Below are positions 1-27,667 of a stretch of DNA of 51,706 bases, one piece after another. The position numbers and the translations under genes were made by a program. Under the pieces are notes generated by a model, which searched no databases, was not told where the DNA came from, and saw only the letters and a program-made list of their open reading frames with translations. Origin of the DNA: Acidobacteria bacterium RIFCSPLOWO2_12_FULL_65_11 (GTDB lineage Bacteria > Acidobacteriota > Vicinamibacteria > Vicinamibacterales > CAVVIG01). The stretch lies in contig MELA01000032.1 in NCBI GenBank assembly GCA_001767495.1, positions 24,606 through 76,311 of the forward strand, read 5' to 3'. Within the stretch, counting starts at the first letter, position 1; every line of letters begins with the position of its first letter.

Positions 1-973
1 GGGGCAGAGGCTCGAAGCCGAGCGAGGCGTAGAAACGCTCGCCGATCCTCACCATGTCGGTCGCGCTCGTCTTGCGCCGCTTGAGGATGTCGGTGAGCGA
101 ATACCCGGCGTCGGCGCGGGCCGGGGCGACGAGCGGGTAGATGTTGGACCAGTCCTGCGCCCAGATGTTGCCCAGCAGATAGGCCGGCATCGGTCCGCCG
201 GCGGGCACCGCGTCGCCGTACTTCTCGCGCAGCTTCATGCGAACGTAGGCGTGAAGCTTCTGATGGAGCGGCCGAAGCTGATCCCACAGCCGATCGAGCT
301 CCTTGGTGAATGCCTCGGGCGGCATGTCGTACTTCATCCGCCACATGGCCCCGGTGTCGGCGAACCCGAGCTCTTTCGCACCCTTATTCGACAGCTCGAC
401 GAACCGCGCGTAGTCTTTGCGCATCGGCGGCGAGATCGTGTGCCACCCTTCCCAGACCTGGCGCAGCCGCTTGTCGTCGCGCGAGGTCGCCATGATCTCG
501 GTAATCTGATCGATGTTGAGGCAGACGTCCGGCTTCGCCGGGTCGGCGCACCACTTGCCCTTGCCGTACGTCCCGTTCATCCTGGCGGCGATCGTCGTCA
601 ACTCCTCGGCTTCCTTGGGGTCGGAGGGCGTCGCCATCACGAGCGACGTCTTCAGCACGTTGAGCTGCCGGCGATCTTCGGCGGGGAGGTCCAGCCGGTC
701 GAATTGCGTCGCCTCTTTGGCGAAGCGGGCGATCGCATCGATGAGCTGCTGGTTGATGCGGGCGTTGAGGGCCTCGGTGTCCGCCGTGATGAAGTTCTGT
801 TGAACCCAGCCGGCCTGGTTCCCCTGGATGCCGAGCCTCAGAATCGTCTGATTCGCGTTGTCGAGAAACACCTTGGCGTCGGCGGCGGTCGGCGGCGGCG
901 GCGCGGCGGGGGCGCAGCCGGCCGTGGCGAGGGTGAGGAGGATGGCGGCGAGGGTCGGTGAGTATCGAGCCAT
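1..973 (-). CDS. M2 family (angiotensin-converting-enzyme-like) metallopeptidase, 3' end outside window
   Basis: The first ~324 residues of a zinc dipeptidyl carboxypeptidase of the peptidyl-dipeptidase A family, which acts in the periplasm or cell envelope. The ATG at 973 follows a GAGG ribosome site six bases upstream and opens a hydrophobic signal with a lipobox-like TAGC ending at Cys20, suggesting a lipoprotein. The stretch around NQAGWVQQNFITADTEALNA and later KGKWCADP and DDKRLRQVWEGWHTISPPMR resembles the N-terminal lid of M2 peptidases. The HExxH zinc motif would lie beyond the window edge, so catalytic competence cannot be judged. It starts 23 bases after the stop of the S46 peptidase on the same strand, so the two probably form a peptide-scavenging operon. 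Family assignment rests on sequence recognition. Confidence 0.85.
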   Translation of the reverse strand, partial: MARYSPTLAAILLTLATAGCAPAAPPPPTAADAKVFLDNANQTILRLGIQGNQAGWVQQNFITADTEALNARINQQLIDAIARFAKEATQFDRLDLPAEDRRQLNVLKTSLVMATPSDPKEAEELTTIAARMNGTYGKGKWCADPAKPDVCLNIDQITEIMATSRDDKRLRQVWEGWHTISPPMRKDYARFVELSNKGAKELGFADTGAMWRMKYDMPPEAFTKELDRLWDQLRPLHQKLHAYVRMKLREKYGDAVPAGGPMPAYLLGNIWAQDWSNIYPLVAPARADAGYSLTDILKRRKTSATDMVRIGERFYASLGFEPLP

Positions 974-996
974 AACGGACCTCATCTTAATTCCAC

Positions 997-3447
997 CTAC
1001 CGTGATCCGATCACCTCGGCCACCAGATCGGTCGCGCCGTAGACCTTTGTCAGTGCTTCGACGATCGCGGCGCTGTGGACCGCAATCGCGCGGCTGCCCT
1101 CGGCTTCATCTATATAGAGGTAGCGGTTGGGCAGCTTCTGCTGGTTGCTGTCGAAGTTGAGGCCCACCAGTTCTCCGTTGCGGTTGACGATCGGGCTGCC
1201 CGAGTTGCCGCCGATGGTGTCCACGGTATAAACGAAATTGAGCGCCGTGGACAGGTTCAGCGTGTTTCGGGCGTCCCGCCACCGCGCGGGCAGCCGATAC
1301 GGCGGCTTTTCACCAAAGCTTTCCGCGCGATCGTAGAGCCCATAGAACGTCGTCTTCCACGGCACGAGCGTGGTGTCTTCCTCGTAGCCCAGCACGCGGC
1401 CCAACCCGAGCCGCAGCGTGAAGGTGGCATCGGGATACACCGTGTTGCCGTAGACGGCGAATCGCGCGGCGGCGATCTGCTGTCCGGCGCTCGCCTCGAC
1501 GCTCCGGAGGCGTTCGTCCTGCCAGGCGCGCAGTTCGCGAAGGACAGGATCGACGCGACGGGCGAGCGCGACGAGCGGATCGGTGGACTGGCGAATGGCG
1601 TTCGGGCCGCCCTCGAGGAGCATCCGGCGCGCCGCCGGGTCGGCCAGCTTCGTGCCGACGATTGCGGCCCGCGCGACGTCGGCAGCCGAGCGGTTCTCGA
1701 GTGCGACCTTCACGAACGGATCGCCGGCCCCGAGCGTGCGGCGTGCCTCTTCCAGCCAGCCAGCGAGCACGGCTTGCTCGAGGTCGGGATACACCGGCGT
1801 GCCGTAGACGGCGAATCGCGCGGCGGCGATCTGCTGTCCGGCGCTCGCCTCGACGCTCCGGAGGCGTTCGTCCTGCCAGGCGCGCAGTTCGCGAAGGACA
1901 GGATCGACGCGACGGGCGAGCGCGACGAGCGGATCGGTGGACTGGCGAATGGCGTTCGGGCCGCCCTCGAGGAGCATCCGGCGCGCCGCCGGGTCGGCCA
2001 GCTTCGTGCCGACGATTGCGGCCCGCGCGACGTCGGCAGCCGAGCGGTTCTCGAGTGCGACCTTCACGAACGGATCGCCGGCCCCGAGCGTGCGGCGTGC
2101 CTCTTCCAGCCAGCCAGCGAGCACGGCTTGCTCGAGGTCGGGATACACCGGCGCGCTCGACAGCAGCGTCGAGCGCATCGTCTCGAGTCGCGAGTCGCGG
2201 AACTCTTCGAGCCGCACGCCGTTCGGCTTGTCAATCTCGTCCGCGTACCGCACGAGCGTGGTCGCATAGCCGCCGAGCCGCGACACTCCCAGCGTCGAGA
2301 ACGCCAGGCGCGGCGCCCGCTGCGCCAGCTCACCGTACACCGCGTCGAGGCGCCCCCAGGCCTCGCCGTACGTCCGCTGCCACGCGGCGTTCCGGGCGAC
2401 GGCCGATCGAAACATCCGCTCCTCCTCTTCCTTCTGGCCAAGGACGCGCGGATTCTCGAGGCCCTGCTGCTGGCCTACGAGCCGCTTCAACGAGTTCTCG
2501 AGCGAACGGATCGTTGCGCCCGCTCGACGTGCCGCTTCCGGGCCAGCCTTCGAATACGAGGCGAGGGTGTCCCGGCGCGATTCCCAGACTGTCCGCTGCA
2601 ACGGATTCCCGATGTCACGCTGATACCGGATCTGAGTCAGCGTCTGTAGGCGATCGGTCGATCCGGGATTGCCGGACAGGATGACCAACTCGCCGTCAGA
2701 CGGACCAGCGGTAGACCAGCGGAGGTAGTGTTCGGTTCGCGCCGGCTGCCCGTTCTCATAGAGACGCAGAAACGCGAAGTCGACGTCGTGCCGCGGGTAG
2801 GTGAAGTTGTCGTAGTCGCCGCCGAAGTACGCGATTTGTTCTTCGGGCGCAAAGACGAGGCGCACATCCGTGTACCGTTTGTACCTGTACAACCAGTACT
2901 CGCCGCCGTTGTACAACGCGACCACGTCGGAGCGGAGGCCGGTGGCGTCGAGCGACTCTTTCTCGACGGCCGCCATCACGCTGCGCCGCGCCGCGGCGAC
3001 ATCCGCATCGCTCGCGCCGGCCCGTGCAGCGGCCTGCACGCGAGCCGTGACGTTGTCGTACGACACGAGGACGAGGGCCTCGATGTCGGCCAGCCGCGGT
3101 TCGGCGCTGCGTGCCCGCGCGTAGAAGCCGTCGCGCACCAGGTCGCGCTCGGCGGTCGACAACTTCTGAAGCTGGCCAGCCGCGATGTGCTGATTGGTCA
3201 GCACGAGGCCGTCCCGGGAGACGATTGACGCGCTGCCGCCACCGGCCCCTTCAACCAGTTTGACGGATGACAGCCGCAGGTGATCGAGCCAGGCATTGGT
3301 GGGCTCGAATCCGTAGCGTGCCTTCCAGAAGGCGCGCGGGGGATTGTCGAACGTCCACATGCCCTCGTCTGCGCGCGAGCTGTGGACCGACAACACCGCC
3401 AGCGCGACTATTAGCACCCCCGTCCAACGACGCGCACGACCTGACAT
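997..3447 (-). CDS. S46 family dipeptidyl-peptidase (DPP7/DPP11-like) with internal exact duplication
   Basis: A secreted serine dipeptidyl-peptidase of 816 residues. A signal peptide (residues 1-26, cleavage after SSRA) precedes the catalytic domain. The chymotrypsin-like triad is visible: His87 in LVLTNQH, the Asp in the [16 protein letters not shown] block, and the Ser in GGNSGSP near the C-terminus. After GLNFD, where DPP7 and DPP11 differ in the residue that sets substrate preference, this protein has Ser, so its specificity is unclear. The helical middle contains two identical 118-residue blocks in tandem. Without one copy the protein would be 698 residues, close to the family's usual ~700. 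A GGAGG ribosome site stands ten bases before the ATG. The M2 peptidase gene follows directly. The duplication may be real or an assembly error. Confidence 0.9.
1447..2154. repeat. Exact 354-bp tandem duplication inside the S46 peptidase gene
   Basis: The units 1447-1800 and 1801-2154 read identically base for base and keep the frame (118 codons). Both outer ends carry the 13-bp string TCGGGATACACCG, which in the protein is the VYPD that begins each unit and also the native sequence after the second unit. That is what microhomology-mediated duplication, or collapse and expansion in assembly, would leave. The lack of any substitution means the event is very recent or artificial. Confidence 0.95.
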
Positions 3448-3554
3448 GGCTATCCGCCCTCCGCGGTCATCATACGCCGGTATCCCGTCCGAATCATGAA
3501 CGTTGAAGGAGCCTTACGCCTAGATTAGACAACCGGAATCGATGCATCATGTCT

Positions 3555-3642
3555 GTGACGTTCTGTTCTAGATACGCCGAGCGCTACGGCGCGAAGGCGT
3601 GGGCGAGCGGGGGTGGGGCCCCGCGAGGAATAAGAAAAGGAG
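3555..3642 (+). repeat. Structured leader repeat, copy 1 (before metallo-hydrolase)
   Basis: First of three related elements (others at 12199 and 12647), all starting GTGACGTTCTGTTC. It can fold into two hairpins. Hairpin 1 pairs ACGCC (3574-3578) with GGCGT (3596-3600), then a GA/GAA internal loop, then GCGC (3581-3584) with GCGC (3589-3592) around a TACG tetraloop. Hairpin 2 pairs GCGGGG (3607-3612) with CCCCGC (3619-3624) around the loop GTGGGG. The element ends in AAAAGGAG, a strong ribosome site six bases before the ATG at 3649. The rest of the 201-bp gap (3448-3554) holds the upstream region of the S46 gene, with no further structure I can support. Confidence 0.75.
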
Positions 3643-3648
3643 CGCGCG

Positions 3649-4389
3649 ATGTTACGTGTTCATATCGGTTGTGCGGCCGCGGGCCTGCTGCTGACGGTGG
3701 CGGTCGCGTCGGCTCAGACGCGAGACGTGATCCCGGCGACGGGCGGCAATATCACCATCATCCCTGTCTACCACGGCAGCCTGCAGGTCGTGCACGCCAA
3801 TCACGTGATCGACGTCGACCCGGCCGCGCCGGCGAATTTCACCGGCCTCCAGGCGCCCGCCATCATCCTCGTCACCGATATTCATGACGATCACCTCGAC
3901 GCGGGGCTCGTCGGACGGCTGCGCACGCCGATGACCGCGATCGTCGCGCCGTCGGCCGCCGCCGGCCAGTTGCAGGGCTCGACCGTCATGGCCAACGGCG
4001 AGACCAGGTCGGTCATGGGGCTCACCATCGAGGCTGTACCCATGTACAACCTCGTGCGCGGGCCATCGGCCGGCCAGTTGTTTCACACCAAAGGCCGCGG
4101 CAACGGCTACATCGTCACAGTCGGCGGCAAGCGCCTGTATTTTGCCGGCGACACGGAGTGCGTCCCCGAGATGAAGGCGCTCACGAACATCGACGTCGCG
4201 TTCATCCCGATGATCCTGCCGTACACGATGCCGCCCTCCGAGGCCGCCGAGTGTGTCAAGGCGTTCAAGCCGAAGATCGTGTACCCGTATCACTACATGG
4301 GCGCGGACATGAGCGAATTCACGACCGCGCTTCAGGGCACGGGCATCGAGGTGCGGTTGCGCGAGTGGTACACGACGACGGCGAAGTGA
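3649..4389 (+). CDS. Secreted MBL-fold metallo-hydrolase (UlaG-like)
   Basis: A 246-residue metallo-beta-lactamase-fold hydrolase with a signal peptide (cleavage near ASA-QT, residue 22), so it probably acts in the periplasm. Metal-binding signatures include TDIHDDHLD (the HxxxDH-type motif in UlaG-like form), FAGDTE after the YIVTVGGKRLY strand, and the terminal YPYHY histidine. These match the UlaG/RomA-like subgroup of the MBL superfamily, whose members act on lactones or phosphodiesters; the substrate here cannot be read from sequence. The ATG sits six bases after AAAAGGAG, the tail of the structured leader repeat, so translation probably depends on that leader. It converges with the MFS/spermidine synthase gene across a short palindromic gap and appears to be a single-gene unit. 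Confidence 0.85.
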   Translation: MLRVHIGCAAAGLLLTVAVASAQTRDVIPATGGNITIIPVYHGSLQVVHANHVIDVDPAAPANFTGLQAPAIILVTDIHDDHLDAGLVGRLRTPMTAIVAPSAAAGQLQGSTVMANGETRSVMGLTIEAVPMYNLVRGPSAGQLFHTKGRGNGYIVTVGGKRLYFAGDTECVPEMKALTNIDVAFIPMILPYTMPPSEAAECVKAFKPKIVYPYHYMGADMSEFTTALQGTGIEVRLREWYTTTAK

Positions 4390-11852: not shown

Positions 11853-12155
11853 GTGCACCTGACGCCGCGCGAAGTCGACAAGCTGCTCATCTTTTCGGCC
11901 GGCGAGCTCGCCAGGAAGCGCCGGGCTCGCGGGCTGAAGCTCAATCATCCGGAAGCGGTTGCGCTCATCACGTCGGACATCCTCGAACTGATTCGCGACG
12001 GCAAGTCGGTGGCCGAGATCATGAGCATCGGTCCAACCATCCTGCCGGCGAGCGCCGTGATGGAAGGCGTGGCCGAGATGATCGGCGAGATTCAGGTCGA
12101 AGGCACATTTCCCGACGGGACAAAGCTGGTGACCATCCACCATCCCGTCCGGTAG
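11853..12155 (+). CDS. ureA: Urease gamma subunit
   Basis: A 100-residue urease small subunit, full family length, beginning [20 protein letters not shown] and containing [16 protein letters not shown] and the [20 protein letters not shown] block typical of UreA. With UreB and UreC it forms the (abc)3 cytoplasmic enzyme that splits urea into ammonia and carbamate. The GTG start lacks a ribosome site but sits just after TATGAT. The gap to ureB is 129 bases, unusually long for this operon, because a structured leader repeat lies there. First gene of ureABCEFGD. Confidence 0.95.
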
Positions 12156-12198: not shown

Positions 12199-12279
12199 GT
12201 GACGTTCTGTTCCAGATACGCCGAGCGCCACGGCGCGAAGGCGTCATCGAGTGGGGGTGGGGCCCCACGAGCATAGGAA
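12199..12279 (+). repeat. Structured leader repeat, copy 2 (ureA-ureB gap)
   Basis: Second copy, beginning GTGACGTTCTGTTC. Hairpin 1 again pairs ACGCC with GGCGT and GCGC with GCGC, here with the loop CACG. Hairpin 2 pairs GTGGGG (12251-12256) with CCCCAC (12263-12268) around GTGGGG. Compared with copy 1, one C-G pair has become T-A, so both sides changed together. The tail ATAGGAATAGTA supplies AGGA before the ureB ATG. Just before it, 12156-12198 holds TCGGTGAC and CCCGGGGTGGGCCCC, which look like a decayed partial copy. Confidence 0.75.
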
Positions 12280-12284
12280 TAGTA

Positions 12285-12650: not shown

Positions 12651-12731
12651 CGTTCTGTTCTAGATACACGCGAGCGCCACGGCGCGAGCGTGTCAGCGCC
12701 GGGGGTGGGGCCCCGGCGCAGTAAGAAAAGG
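12647..12731 (+). repeat. Structured leader repeat, copy 3 (ureB-ureC gap)
   Basis: Third copy; its first bases contain the ureB stop codon. Hairpin 1 uses ACACGC (12666-12671) with GCGTGT (12688-12693), a different but fully paired stem from copies 1 and 2, around the same GA/GA internal loop and GCGC-CACG-GCGC tip. Hairpin 2 is longer: GCGCCGGGG (12696-12704) with CCCCGGCGC (12711-12719), again around GTGGGG. The tail TAAGAAAAGG follows. A further palindrome GTGGGGCCCCAC (12731-12742) stands before ureC, which has no clear ribosome site. Confidence 0.75.
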
Positions 12732-12755: not shown

Positions 12756-14462
12756 ATGCAAATCTCCAGACGCATCTACGCTGACCACTACGGCCCAACG
12801 ACCGGCGATCGGATTCGCTTGGCCGACACCGATCTCGTCATTCGCATCGAGCACGACGCGACGGTCTACGGAGACGAAGCGAAGTTCGGCGGCGGCAAGG
12901 TGATTCGCGACGGCATGGGCCAGTCAACCTCCGCCAGCCGCGCCACCGGGTCTCCCGACCTCGTCATCACGAACGTCGTCATCGTGGATGCGACCGGCAT
13001 CCGCAAAGCCGACGTCGGGATTCGCGACGGCCGCATCAGCGGGATCGGCAAGGCAGGCAATCCAGGCGTCATGGACGGCGTGACGCCAGACCTCGTCATC
13101 AGCGCGTCGACCGAAATCATCGCCGGAGAAGGTCACATCCTCACGGCCGGTGCCATCGACTCGCACGTGCATTTCATCTCGCCGAATCAGATCCCTGACG
13201 CGTTCCATTCCGGCATCACAACGCTTATTGGCGGCGGCACTGGTCCGGCGACCGGCACCAAGGCCACGACGTGCACGCCGGGCGCCTGGCACATTCGGCG
13301 GATGTACGAAGCGGCAGCGGCGTTCCCGCTCAACTTCGGTTTTCTCGGGAAGGGCAATGCGTCCGGCCCCGACGCTTTGCGCGAGCAGATTCGCGGCGGC
13401 GCCATCGGCTTGAAGCTCCACGAGGATTGGGGATCGACGCCTGCGGCAATCGATCAGTGTCTGAACGTGGCGGACGAGTTCGACGTACAGGTGGCGATTC
13501 ACACCGACACCCTCAACGAGACCGGGTGTGTCGAGGACTCGATCCGCGCGATCGGCGGCCGTACGATCCACACGTACCACACGGAAGGCGCGGGCGGCGG
13601 CCATGCGCCCGATATCATCCGGCTCTGCGGCGAGCCCAACGTCCTGCCCTCGTCCACCAACCCGACGATGCCGTTTACGAGGAATACGCTGGACGAGCAC
13701 CTGGACATGTTGATGGTGTGTCACCACCTGTCGCCGAACGTGCCGGAGGACGTGGCGTTTGCCGACTCGCGCATCCGTCCCGAGACGATTGCCGCCGAGG
13801 ACGTGCTGCACGACATGGGCGCCTTCAGCATGATGTCGTCGGACTCTCAGGCGATGGGGCGCATCGGCGAGGTGATTTGTCGGACGTGGCAGACGGCAGA
13901 CAAGATGAAAAAGCAGCGAGGGCCGCTCGCCGGCGAGGCGCCGGGAGCAGACAACCTGCGCGTCCGCCGTTACATCGCCAAGTACACGATCAACCCGGCG
14001 ATCGCGCACGGCATCGCGAGCCATGTGGGATCGGTCGAGGTGGGGAAGCTCGCAGATCTCGTGTTGTGGAAGCCGGCGTTTTTTGGCTGCAAGCCCGAGA
14101 TCGTCATCAAAGGCGGATTCATTGCCGGCGCGATGATGGGAGACGGCAACGCCTCGATTCCGACGCCGCAGCCCGTGGTGGCGAGGCCGATGTTCGGCGC
14201 CTTTGGCGCGGCGCTCACGACGTGCAGCGTCCATTTCGTCAGTCAGGCGGGCATCGACGCCGGCGCGCTGTCGGGCCTCGATCGGCCGTTAGTTGCGGTT
14301 CGGGGCTGTCGGTCGCTCGGCAAACGCGACCTGGTGCTCAACGACGCGTTGCCCAGAATCGACGTCGATCCCGAGACCTACGACGTACGGGCCGACGGCG
14401 ATCGACTGGTCAGCGAACCAGCGGATGTGTTGCCGTTGGCGCAACGATATTTCCTGTTTTGA
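12756..14462 (+). CDS. ureC: Urease alpha subunit (catalytic, nickel)
   Basis: A 568-residue catalytic subunit of full length. All active-site residues are present, three positions on from the Klebsiella numbering: His137 and His139 (IDSHVHF), the carbamylated Lys220 (GLKLHEDWG), His222, His249 (AIHTD), His275 (TYHTEG), the flap Cys322-His323 (MVCHHL) and Asp363 (SSDSQ). The enzyme should be active once UreD, UreF, UreG and UreE insert two nickel ions. The start matches the family N-terminus ([22 protein letters not shown], beginning at 12756). It lies 105 bases after ureB because of the third repeat copy. UreE follows after a palindromic 75-base gap. Confidence 0.97.
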
Positions 14463-19402: not shown

Positions 19403-19731
19403 CCGGCCTCGACTTCGCCCGTGCGGATCTTATAGCTCTGGGTGACGGGGAAGACGAACACGCGGCCGTCGCCGATCTCGCCCGTTCGGGCCGCCTGCAT
19501 GATCGCCTTCACGACCTCATCGACGACCGCGTCAGCCACGACGATCTCGATTTCCATTTTCGGCAGCAGGCTCACGTTGTACTCCTTGCCGCGGTAGATG
19601 GCCGTGTGCCCCTTCTGTTTGCCGTGGCCTCGCACTTCGGTGACCGTCATGCCCGACACGTCGAGCTTGGCGAGCGCCTCCTTCACGTCGTCCACCTTGT
19701 TGGGTCGGACGATGGACTTAACGAGCTTCAT
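19399..19731 (-). CDS. glnB: PII nitrogen regulatory protein, copy 1
   Basis: A 110-residue PII protein that senses ATP/ADP and 2-oxoglutarate and is uridylylated by GlnD. The T-loop [17 protein letters not shown] carries the uridylylation site Tyr51. The B-loop [11 protein letters not shown] and the signature [16 protein letters not shown] are intact. The ATG overlaps the last 14 bases of glnD, so PII and its modifying enzyme are translated together. Its TAG stop is read from the same CTAG as the stop of the convergent activator gene. About three quarters identical by eye to the second PII at 27338; which one is GlnB and which GlnK in function cannot be told from sequence. Confidence 0.93.
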
Positions 19732-22243
19732 CGGTGCCCTCCAGCATGCGTTGCAGGTCGGCCGCCAGCGCCTGCTGTGCCGCGTCCGACAGCTTGGCGC
19801 CCGCCTGGGTGATGTGGAACACGTCGATCGCTTTTTCGCCCTCGGTCGAGATCAGCACGAGATCGACGTCGCAGCCGTGCCGCGAGATCACCCGGCTGAT
19901 GCGGTGGAGCAGCCCGATGGCGTTGTCGGCAATGATATCCAGGATGGTGAACCGGCGCGACGACTGATTGTCGCAGTGAATGACCGGCGCGAACCGCGAG
20001 ACGCGGCGACCGAGGATGCCGCGCTCGAGCGCACGGAGGCGGGTGGCGACGTCTGACCGCCCGGAGACGACGTCGGCGAGGGTCTCGAGCACACGATCCC
20101 GACCGTCTGGATTGAGCGCCAGGAACCGCTCCTGGTCGGTGAACTGGAAGATGTCGAGCACGAGCCCGTTGGGATTGGTGAGCGCGTGACCCCGCAGGAT
20201 GTCCATGCCGAACGACGAGAGCACGCCGCAGATATTGGAGAACAGGAACGGCTTGTCGAGCGTCACCACGGTCAGCTCCCACGCGTCCCCTTTCGGCTCG
20301 AGCGTGGCGTGCACCTGGGCGGGCTGGATGGCGCGCGCGAGCTTCACATGGCGATAGATCGCGTCGTGTGAAAACAACTGCAAGTACCGGCGCGGCAGTC
20401 CCTCGAGAAACCGGGTAATGTCAGCCGCCGACAGGTCGCGGGGGCGTCCGGCCAGCAGTTCCGAGAGGCCGGACTGGTTGCCTTCGATGAGCTCGTCTCC
20501 GTACTGCAGGGTGAGATGGTTGTACGTGTCGACGTACAAGCGCCACAGCAGTTCCTCGCGCCAGGGCGTGAGTGTCTCGGGACTGACGGCCCCGACATCG
20601 ACGAGCGTCATCAGGCAGAGCATCTTGAGCCGCTCTTCGACGCCCACCAGATCCGCGAACTGCTTGACGACTTCCGGGTCCTCGGTATCCCGCCGAAACG
20701 CCACCAGTGACATCTGCAGATGGTGCTGGATGAGAAACTGCACGGTGTCGCGGGCCTCGGCCGGCAGGTGAAGGCGCGCGAACATCTGCTGCGCCATCCG
20801 CACGCTTTCGACGCGGTGATCCTCGTCTCTCCACTTGCCGACGTCGTGAAACAACAGCGACAGCACGAGCAGTTCCGGCGCGGCCAGGTCCGCGAGCAGC
20901 GAACCGAACCGTTCGCGGTCCGACGTCGAGGGTCCGGTGAGCCGCTCCAGGTTCCGGATCGTCAACAGCGTGTGCTCGTCGACGGTGTACTTGTGGTAGA
21001 AGTCGCGGACGACGCGGCACGAGATGGCCTGGAATTCTGGAAACATGCGGCCGAGCAGCCCGCAGTCGTGCATCTCGGTCAGACGCGCGTAGAGACCGGG
21101 CCGTGGTTTGAGGAAGTTCAGCACGGCGGCTCGGCTTGCCGGAGAGGGGCAGAACTCCTCAGGCTGGTAGAGGTGCGCGTGCTGCTGGATGAGCGCCGCC
21201 GCTTCATCGGCGACCGATGCGCCGGTCTCGATCGCCGCCTGGAACAGGTCGATCCAGGCGTGCGGCTCGTTGGCCGCGCGCCGGATGTCGACGAAACGGA
21301 CGCCGTCGCGGGACCGCACGAGGTTGACGCCGACGGGCACCGGCGCGGTGCGGCGCATCCATTCGAGCGATCGGCTCACGGCGCGTGCGTGCCGGAAATA
21401 GTCGCTCATCAGCCGCTCGACGCGCTGCTGGGGCTGCGCGCCGCCGTACCCCAGCATCTGGGCTGCCTTTTCCTGCAGCTCGTGGCTCAACACGTTCTGA
21501 TTGCGCTTCGATTCCAGGTGGATGATCGATCGAATCCGAAAGAGAAAGTCCTCGGCTTCGTTGAGCCGCGCAGGCTCGGCGGGACCGATATCGAGCAGGG
21601 CCGGATCGGTCAGCCGCGCGATCACCCGAAGGGCCATCAAATCGCGCAGGGCGCCCGGCGCGTCCTTGATGTCGGGCTCGAGTTGGTAGAGCGTGTCGTT
21701 GAACTGCGCATGACGCTGGGTGATGAGTTGTTGGAGCGCCCCCAGGGTAAACGCGTGCGTCTCTGGCCGATGGAACAGGGCCGTGAAGCGATCGAAAACC
21801 GACGCGTCTCCGACGACGAGCCTGGCGTCGACGAGCGCCAGGAGAAACTCCGGATTGTCGGTCTCGAGGTGCGCGAAGTCGTTCAGTTCGCGGATCTGCT
21901 GCCCCAGGACCAACCCAAGATCCCATAGTGGCGTGAGCAACCCGCGGACGAGTCGCTCTTCATCGGCACCGATCGGCCCGTCAAACAGCACCAGCAGGTC
22001 GACGTCGGAGTGCAAACACAGGTGGCGTCGTCCGTAGCCTCCCAGGGCGACGATCGCCACGGGGATCGAGCTTGGCGGCGCGGCCGCGAACACCTGCAAC
22101 AGCAGCGCGTCCAGCCGATCGGAAAAGCGCTCGGCCGCGGCCCTGCCCGCACGGCCGGCCCGCGTCTGGTCGACGAGCTCGCGGCGGGCCGCTTGGAGCA
22201 GCGCCAGTGGAGGAGCGGCCGGTCGGCTCTCGGTCGTCTTCAT
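19718..22243 (-). CDS. glnD: PII uridylyltransferase / uridylyl-removing enzyme
   Basis: An 841-residue bifunctional nitrogen sensor. Domains in order: nucleotidyltransferase with GGYGRRHLCLHSDVD (Gly68-Gly69, Asp80, Asp82), helical linker, HD phosphohydrolase with LLFHDVGKW near residue 466, and two ACT domains (about 655-720 and 760-835) that bind glutamine. All catalytic residues for attaching and removing UMP are present. The ATG at 22243 overlaps the TGA of the antiporter gene (ATGA), giving coupled translation. In-frame codons extend upstream to 23158 but only read the antiporter gene out of frame. Together with the overlapping glnB this is a complete sensor pair. Confidence 0.95.
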   Translation of the reverse strand: MKTTESRPAAPPLALLQAARRELVDQTRAGRAGRAAAERFSDRLDALLLQVFAAAPPSSIPVAIVALGGYGRRHLCLHSDVDLLVLFDGPIGADEERLVRGLLTPLWDLGLVLGQQIRELNDFAHLETDNPEFLLALVDARLVVGDASVFDRFTALFHRPETHAFTLGALQQLITQRHAQFNDTLYQLEPDIKDAPGALRDLMALRVIARLTDPALLDIGPAEPARLNEAEDFLFRIRSIIHLESKRNQNVLSHELQEKAAQMLGYGGAQPQQRVERLMSDYFRHARAVSRSLEWMRRTAPVPVGVNLVRSRDGVRFVDIRRAANEPHAWIDLFQAAIETGASVADEAAALIQQHAHLYQPEEFCPSPASRAAVLNFLKPRPGLYARLTEMHDCGLLGRMFPEFQAISCRVVRDFYHKYTVDEHTLLTIRNLERLTGPSTSDRERFGSLLADLAAPELLVLSLLFHDVGKWRDEDHRVESVRMAQQMFARLHLPAEARDTVQFLIQHHLQMSLVAFRRDTEDPEVVKQFADLVGVEERLKMLCLMTLVDVGAVSPETLTPWREELLWRLYVDTYNHLTLQYGDELIEGNQSGLSELLAGRPRDLSAADITRFLEGLPRRYLQLFSHDAIYRHVKLARAIQPAQVHATLEPKGDAWELTVVTLDKPFLFSNICGVLSSFGMDILRGHALTNPNGLVLDIFQFTDQERFLALNPDGRDRVLETLADVVSGRSDVATRLRALERGILGRRVSRFAPVIHCDNQSSRRFTILDIIADNAIGLLHRISRVISRHGCDVDLVLISTEGEKAIDVFHITQAGAKLSDAAQQALAADLQRMLEGTDEAR

Positions 22244-27242: not shown

Positions 27243-27337
27243 CGAGACATCGTCTTGGTCAGGCGCACGCGCGCCTCGTGTGGTACAAGACCAAGCATCT
27301 GAGCAACTTATGCGGGATCGCACGACTGGAGGATGCG

Positions 27338-27667
27338 ATGCAGTTGATTAAGGCCATCGTCCGCCCTGACAAGGTGGACGTCGTGAAGGACGCGCTCGTC
27401 AAGTTGAGTGTGTCGGGGATGACCGTGACCGAGGTCCGCGGACACGGGAAACAGAAAGGCCACACAGCCGTCTACCGCGGCCAGGAGTACAACGTGAGCC
27501 TGCTGCCGAAGATGGAGATCGAAATGGTCGTCTCCGACGAGATCGTCGACGAAGCAGTCAGGGCAATCATTCAGGCCGCGCGCACGGGCGAAATTGGCGA
27601 CGGTCGCGTGTTCGTGCTCCCTGTGGGCCAGAGCTACCGGATCCGCACTGGCGAGTACGAGCAATAG
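27338..27667 (+). CDS. PII nitrogen regulatory protein, copy 2 (GlnK-like by context)
   Basis: A 109-residue PII protein starting MQLIKAIVRPDKVDVVKDAL. It keeps the T-loop Tyr51 ([13 protein letters not shown]), the B-loop [11 protein letters not shown] and the RGHGKQKGH motif. I start at the ATG at 27338, which has GGAGG a few bases upstream and gives the family's exact length; in-frame codons from 27185 cross the palindromic sites. Placement opposite amtB suggests the GlnK role of gating the ammonium channel, as in other bacteria, but the sequence itself does not separate GlnK from GlnB. No convincing sigma-54 site lies before it. Confidence 0.93.
   Translation: MQLIKAIVRPDKVDVVKDALVKLSVSGMTVTEVRGHGKQKGHTAVYRGQEYNVSLLPKMEIEMVVSDEIVDEAVRAIIQAARTGEIGDGRVFVLPVGQSYRIRTGEYEQ

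Follow-up and report, generated by a model that had tools for sequence, protein, structure and literature searches.

In the window, as we call the whole 51,706-nt stretch of DNA analysed, which comes from an uncultured acidobacterium, the gene for an S46 family peptidase, a secreted enzyme that trims peptides, contains two identical 354-bp units joined head to tail and in frame, and we consider it likely that they reflect a real, recent intragenic tandem duplication generated by replication slippage (template switching) in an otherwise ordinary S46 dipeptidyl-peptidase gene. The event is an ordinary type of mutation in a known enzyme family. A real duplication is favoured by the homology at its joint, by the stem-loop bordering it and by the finding that scaffold gaps sampled from the same genome have no duplicated flanks.

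An S46 peptidase gene with an exact in-frame tandem repeat

The gene (997–3447, minus strand) is an ORF of 816 codons plus a stop, with an N-terminal hydrophobic segment, and its product matches the PF10459 profile over the whole domain, scoring 686 bits (E 9.8e-206; cut-off 22 bits), although the doubling splits this match in two. Among solved sequences, DAP BII and DPP7 come closest, and the predicted fold, that of DPP7/DAP BII, gives hits to 31 PDB chains with E ≤ 0.001, with S46 enzymes at every rank from 1 to 31. Moreover, the predicted model has the S46 architecture of a chymotrypsin double barrel with an inserted helical domain, and the assignment to S46 in the preliminary description is upheld by both profile and fold. 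Alignment with DAP BII and DPP7 assigns His87, Asp223 and Ser749 as the catalytic residues and Asn214, Asp766 and Asn318 as those that bind the substrate N-terminus; all six are invariant across 36 aligned sequences, and Phe215 is the counterpart of SmDPP7 Trp214. At 816 residues, the protein departs from the usual S46 length of ~700 residues (698 with one unit), but its membership of the family stands, since length is a family habit and not a defining feature. Asp766 is followed by Ser; this position corresponds to DPP11 673 and is given as Gly in DPP7s and as Arg or Ser in DPP11s in passages of one structural account (PMC8041751). Because of this Ser, and of a score far below the cut-off of the DPP7 equivalog model NCBIfam NF053519 (182 bits against 1200), the sequence suggests that the specificity of the enzyme is probably not DPP7-like.

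Comparison of the whole window with itself revealed an exact match at lag 354 over 1446–1799 (354 of 354 bases), and the two units adjoin head to tail as 1446–1799 and 1800–2153. On the coding (minus) strand, 1800–2153 is the first unit (the N-terminal copy, residues ~432–549) and 1446–1799 the second (the C-terminal copy, residues ~550–667). Another match at the same lag, at 1430–1442 (13/13), is set off from the long one by three mismatches at 1443–1445, where TGT stands against GCG at 1797–1799 and 2151–2153. Tandem Repeats Finder called 1430–2153 with a period of 354 and 2.0 copies, and our scan found, by its criterion, no other exact tandem repeat in the window at lags of 20–3999. The reading frame is kept through both units to give the 816-aa ORF, and removing one of them leaves 698 codons and one stop, a normal size for the family. 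The preliminary description had recognised the two identical 354-bp units, the retained frame, the 698-residue single-unit length and the 13-bp microhomology, and in all of these it was right, but the units that it placed at 1447–2154 should be shifted one base to the left because their last bases differ (T1800, C2154). Its view that the event was very recent fits the zero differences in 354 bp, from which the rule of three (3/354) puts divergence between the copies at less than about 0.85%, provided that they are not being homogenised by gene conversion; the dating is weakened to the extent that such conversion between tandem copies could preserve identity.

The same description had placed the doubling in the helical domain, and alignment to solved relatives agrees, locating the doubled segment within the alpha-helical cap. 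In Stenotrophomonas DPP7 this cap comprises residues 275–571, and passages of the structural account describe it as a domain reported in the literature only from S46 enzymes (PMC8041751). The doubled segment aligns with about residues 443–566 of Stenotrophomonas DPP7, that is, the last ~40% of the cap, and it stops at the boundary with the second part of the catalytic domain. In a single-unit relative, this region is predicted as five helices, the last of them 46 residues long. The catalytic triad and the residues binding the substrate N-terminus all lie outside the doubled segment, and none is duplicated. When the 816-residue protein was modelled with AlphaFold (mean pLDDT 83), the first part of copy one and the last part of copy two together formed a native-like cap, and residues ~481–600 were left at low confidence; because this stretch has zero alignment cover, the picture that the model gives of the extra copy simply reflects the alignment. 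In the product, the C-terminal ~40% of the cap would gain 118 residues, with one native copy, or a hybrid of both, packing in place and ~118 residues being extruded. The enzyme is probably left unaffected or impaired rather than given a new trait, and the tandem array is most likely prone to be lost again.

Elsewhere in the window, a dispersed repeat with core GGGGGTGGGGCCC and arm CGAGCGCYACGGCGCGA lies at 3578–3640, 12222–12280 and 12671–12730 (+). The core has 19 copies in 547 kb of the genome and none in 732 kb of loci from relatives, and the repeat could be a REP-like intergenic element. An inverted pair of 326 nt, 80% complementary and 7.6 kb apart, occupies 19408–19733 and 27336–27661. 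The Rfam 5' ureB sRNA family matches 12903–13200 on the minus strand (70 bits; cut-off 40), just past an ORF at 11853–12155 that we take to resemble the urease gamma subunit; this match is perhaps merely conserved urease coding sequence read antisense.

The joint and its proposed origin by slippage

The 13-bp direct repeat TCGGGATACACCG occurs at 1430, 1784 and 2138, and its spacing of 354 equals the unit length. The lag-354 comparison identifies as parental copies those at 2138–2150, the upstream site in coding order, and at 1430–1442, at the border between the helical and catalytic domains; similar YPD motifs are encoded at both. When the three sites were compared, the new joint mapped to 1784–1800, which has the 13-bp repeat and GCG of the 2138–2153 side followed by T1800 of the 1446 side, the crossover being positioned three mismatched bases past the repeat. 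When joins were made at random in the same window, homology of at least 13 bp within 4 bp of the join was obtained in only 2 of 400,000, and arbitrary concatenation was rejected by this test. In the single-unit gene, the 13-bp repeat ranks among the top two direct repeats by length. Both sites could be located in 73 of the 80 relatives; in these, in-register identity between the sites ran to 11 bp at most, against 13 bp here, and to 2–5 bp in 59 of the 73.

A stem search identified, post hoc, a perfect stem-loop with 9-bp arms at 2153–2176, whose outer base coincides with the final base of the unit; only 0.06% of window positions lie within 1 bp of the 5' outer base of such a stem. In the 42 bases before the motif, stems did not exceed 6 bp in any of the 73 relatives, and 62 of these had none of at least 5 bp. 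Among the genes compared, the sole one combining both features is the doubled one. A search for inverted repeats joining the two parental sites found none of at least 8 bp. Slippage is favoured over random joining because the 13-bp homology and the 9-bp stem both exceed the values in relatives.

We propose that a polymerase extending toward rising window coordinates stalled at the base of the 2153–2176 stem-loop, and that the end of the new strand, TCGGGATACACCGGCG, re-annealed 354 bases back via the 13-bp repeat at 1430–1442. Synthesis would then have restarted at 1446, with the GCG of the far site staying in place of TGT and the unit being copied again. The composite joint itself, apart from any mechanism, is directly visible in the sequence. 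Had the slip taken place wholly within the 13-bp repeat, the joint would carry TGT and not GCG, which counts against slippage; with GCG there, three terminal mismatches must therefore have been tolerated and extended, or repaired.

Distribution among relatives and alternative readings

The doubling was absent from all 80 relative loci fetched from the species collection, a few of which are interrupted by contig ends, and the longest match among them was 2,121 bp. The nearest of them are 66.6–70.7% identical; one close S46 relative (locus L022, 1223–3777) is split into two overlapping frames (287 + 659 aa) by a frameshift or sequencing error. In a sample of the order, an S46 match was found in 39 of 149 genomes, with 66 places listed, among which the window gene is the only one to cover one stretch of the profile twice (1–552 and 430–696). 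In a sample of the phylum, for which two candidates per genome were scored, 236 of 396 genomes had a match, and no place among the matches listed was longer than about 2.14 kb. The absence in the 80 loci and among the other order-sample places listed led us to reject the doubling as a widespread family trait. The same genome carries a second S46 gene, single-unit and ~51% identical, and the genus is represented by one genome, the window's own. The neighbouring gene, considered for context only, encodes an M2 (ACE-like) peptidase (2–985, minus strand; PF01401) and is truncated by an 11-N scaffold gap (C32:24595–24605) directly before window base 1. A conserved S46–M2 gene pair was also rejected: of 114 loci, the sole one with an ORF matching the M2 fragment was this genome's own. 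Searches of the literature on S46 enzymes in Acidobacteria and on intragenic tandem or reversible duplications found no account of this case among the papers listed, nor did those on false assembly duplications, template switching and hairpin-linked duplication.

That the duplication exists only in the assembly, as the product of a chimeric (template-switched) library molecule or of a loop or end-join error of the assembler, seems to us unlikely, though it deserves weight. The assembly is a scaffolded draft in 153 contigs, 98% complete, with N gaps of variable length (18 N runs of 6–108 bases in a 547-kb sample, some of which may be operator masking and not gaps), but the flanks were duplicated at none of the 18, and the idea that this assembly habitually leaves contig overlaps unmerged was rejected on that count. 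Among the 94 of 306 contig ends compared, one pair has exactly 55 bases in common, the overlap expected from a de Bruijn assembler run at k = 55, and another has 48. The former, a single pair, hints at an assembler with short k, for which a real joint would need read pairs to be resolved; moreover, a perfect 354-bp repeat is difficult for short reads, which counts against a real duplication. A jump by a graph assembler, nonetheless, requires an exact match of more than 13 bp, and the joint here switches after three mismatches, whereas a mismatch-tolerant gap closer may accept an end overlap of 13 of 16 bases. A hairpin with short homology is also able to provoke template switching in vitro during library preparation and to leave the same mark, but such molecules should be rare among reads, and rare chimeric reads seldom prevail in an assembly. 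Falsely strung strain variants would need identity over all 354 bp, and end-to-end joining of contigs from two strains was set aside, the copies being identical over that length. Across 547,381 bases of the genome, the other exact tandem copies found had periods of 36–42 bp, apart from a 144-bp unit belonging to a natural repeat array, the sole further case with a period above 100 bp. Were the doubling an artefact after all, it would show that exact tandem repeats in scaffolded drafts require read support.

The array with the exact 144-bp tandem copy is a long series of DNIVWGT motifs in a subtilisin-like protein encoded on contig C50 (locus L107, 6663–8159, minus strand). At its end, C50 shares 55 bp with the start of C85 and 48 bp with that of C52, and similar genes may therefore lie on these two contigs.

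It is very unlikely that the doubling is maintained as a functional variant, in which the 118 extra residues enlarge the cap and alter substrate access, a change that the preliminary description had raised, or the copy number flips reversibly as an on/off switch. The retained frame and the intact catalytic residues would suit such a variant, as would the readiness with which exact tandem repeats recombine, but the doubling is shared by none of the 80 loci nor by the other order-sample places listed, the identical copies carry no readable sign of selection, and the extra stretch in the model (~481–600) is of low confidence and lacks alignment cover. In favour of a switch, reversible repeat copy number is found in bacteria, for example in promoter tandem repeats of M. 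tuberculosis, as described in part of one report (PMC12817950). We give a still lower probability to a reversible switch in which cells have one or two units, the two-unit cap changes or blocks a secreted dipeptidyl-peptidase, and the stem-loop and 13-bp repeat make the gain recurrent. Least probable of all is an origin by unequal homologous exchange or end joining between sister chromosomes instead of polymerase slippage: the composite joint, with its three bases beyond the homology, could be a repaired heteroduplex, but 13 bp is far under the usual requirement for RecA exchange, and the stem-loop at the endpoint is left unexplained.

Comparison with known peptidases and duplications

The window protein shares with Stenotrophomonas DPP7, Pseudoxanthomonas DAP BII and Porphyromonas DPP11 the fold, the catalytic His, Asp and Ser, the residues that bind the substrate N-terminus and the inserted alpha-helical cap, and differs from all three in the 118 extra residues contributed by the doubled cap segment. 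At the position equivalent to DPP11 673, its Ser compares with Gly in DPP7s and with Arg or Ser in DPP11s.

For the duplication by replication slippage that we favour, the closest parallel is provided by experimentally confirmed spontaneous duplications in Salmonella, for which passages of one study report joint homologies of 11, 13, 14 and 16 bp and an inferred homology cut-off of at least 11 bp for true duplications (PMC3411829). The joint in the window likewise has a direct repeat within this range of 11–16 bp. Unlike the Salmonella cases in those passages, the crossover here lies 3 bp outside the repeat with a stem-loop at the endpoint, and the unit is small, in frame and within one gene (PMC3411829). 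By analogy, we read the resemblance as a match in kind, not as proof. If real, the duplication would be a clean natural example of a stem-loop by a short direct repeat creating an in-frame duplication whose copies are still undiverged, and would offer a ready test of how the helical cap tolerates a doubled segment. In tandem sequence duplications of T4 lysozyme, a segment is reportedly repeated in frame and only one copy fits the native place; the window segment, for which the same may hold, is much longer and occurs in a natural sequence.
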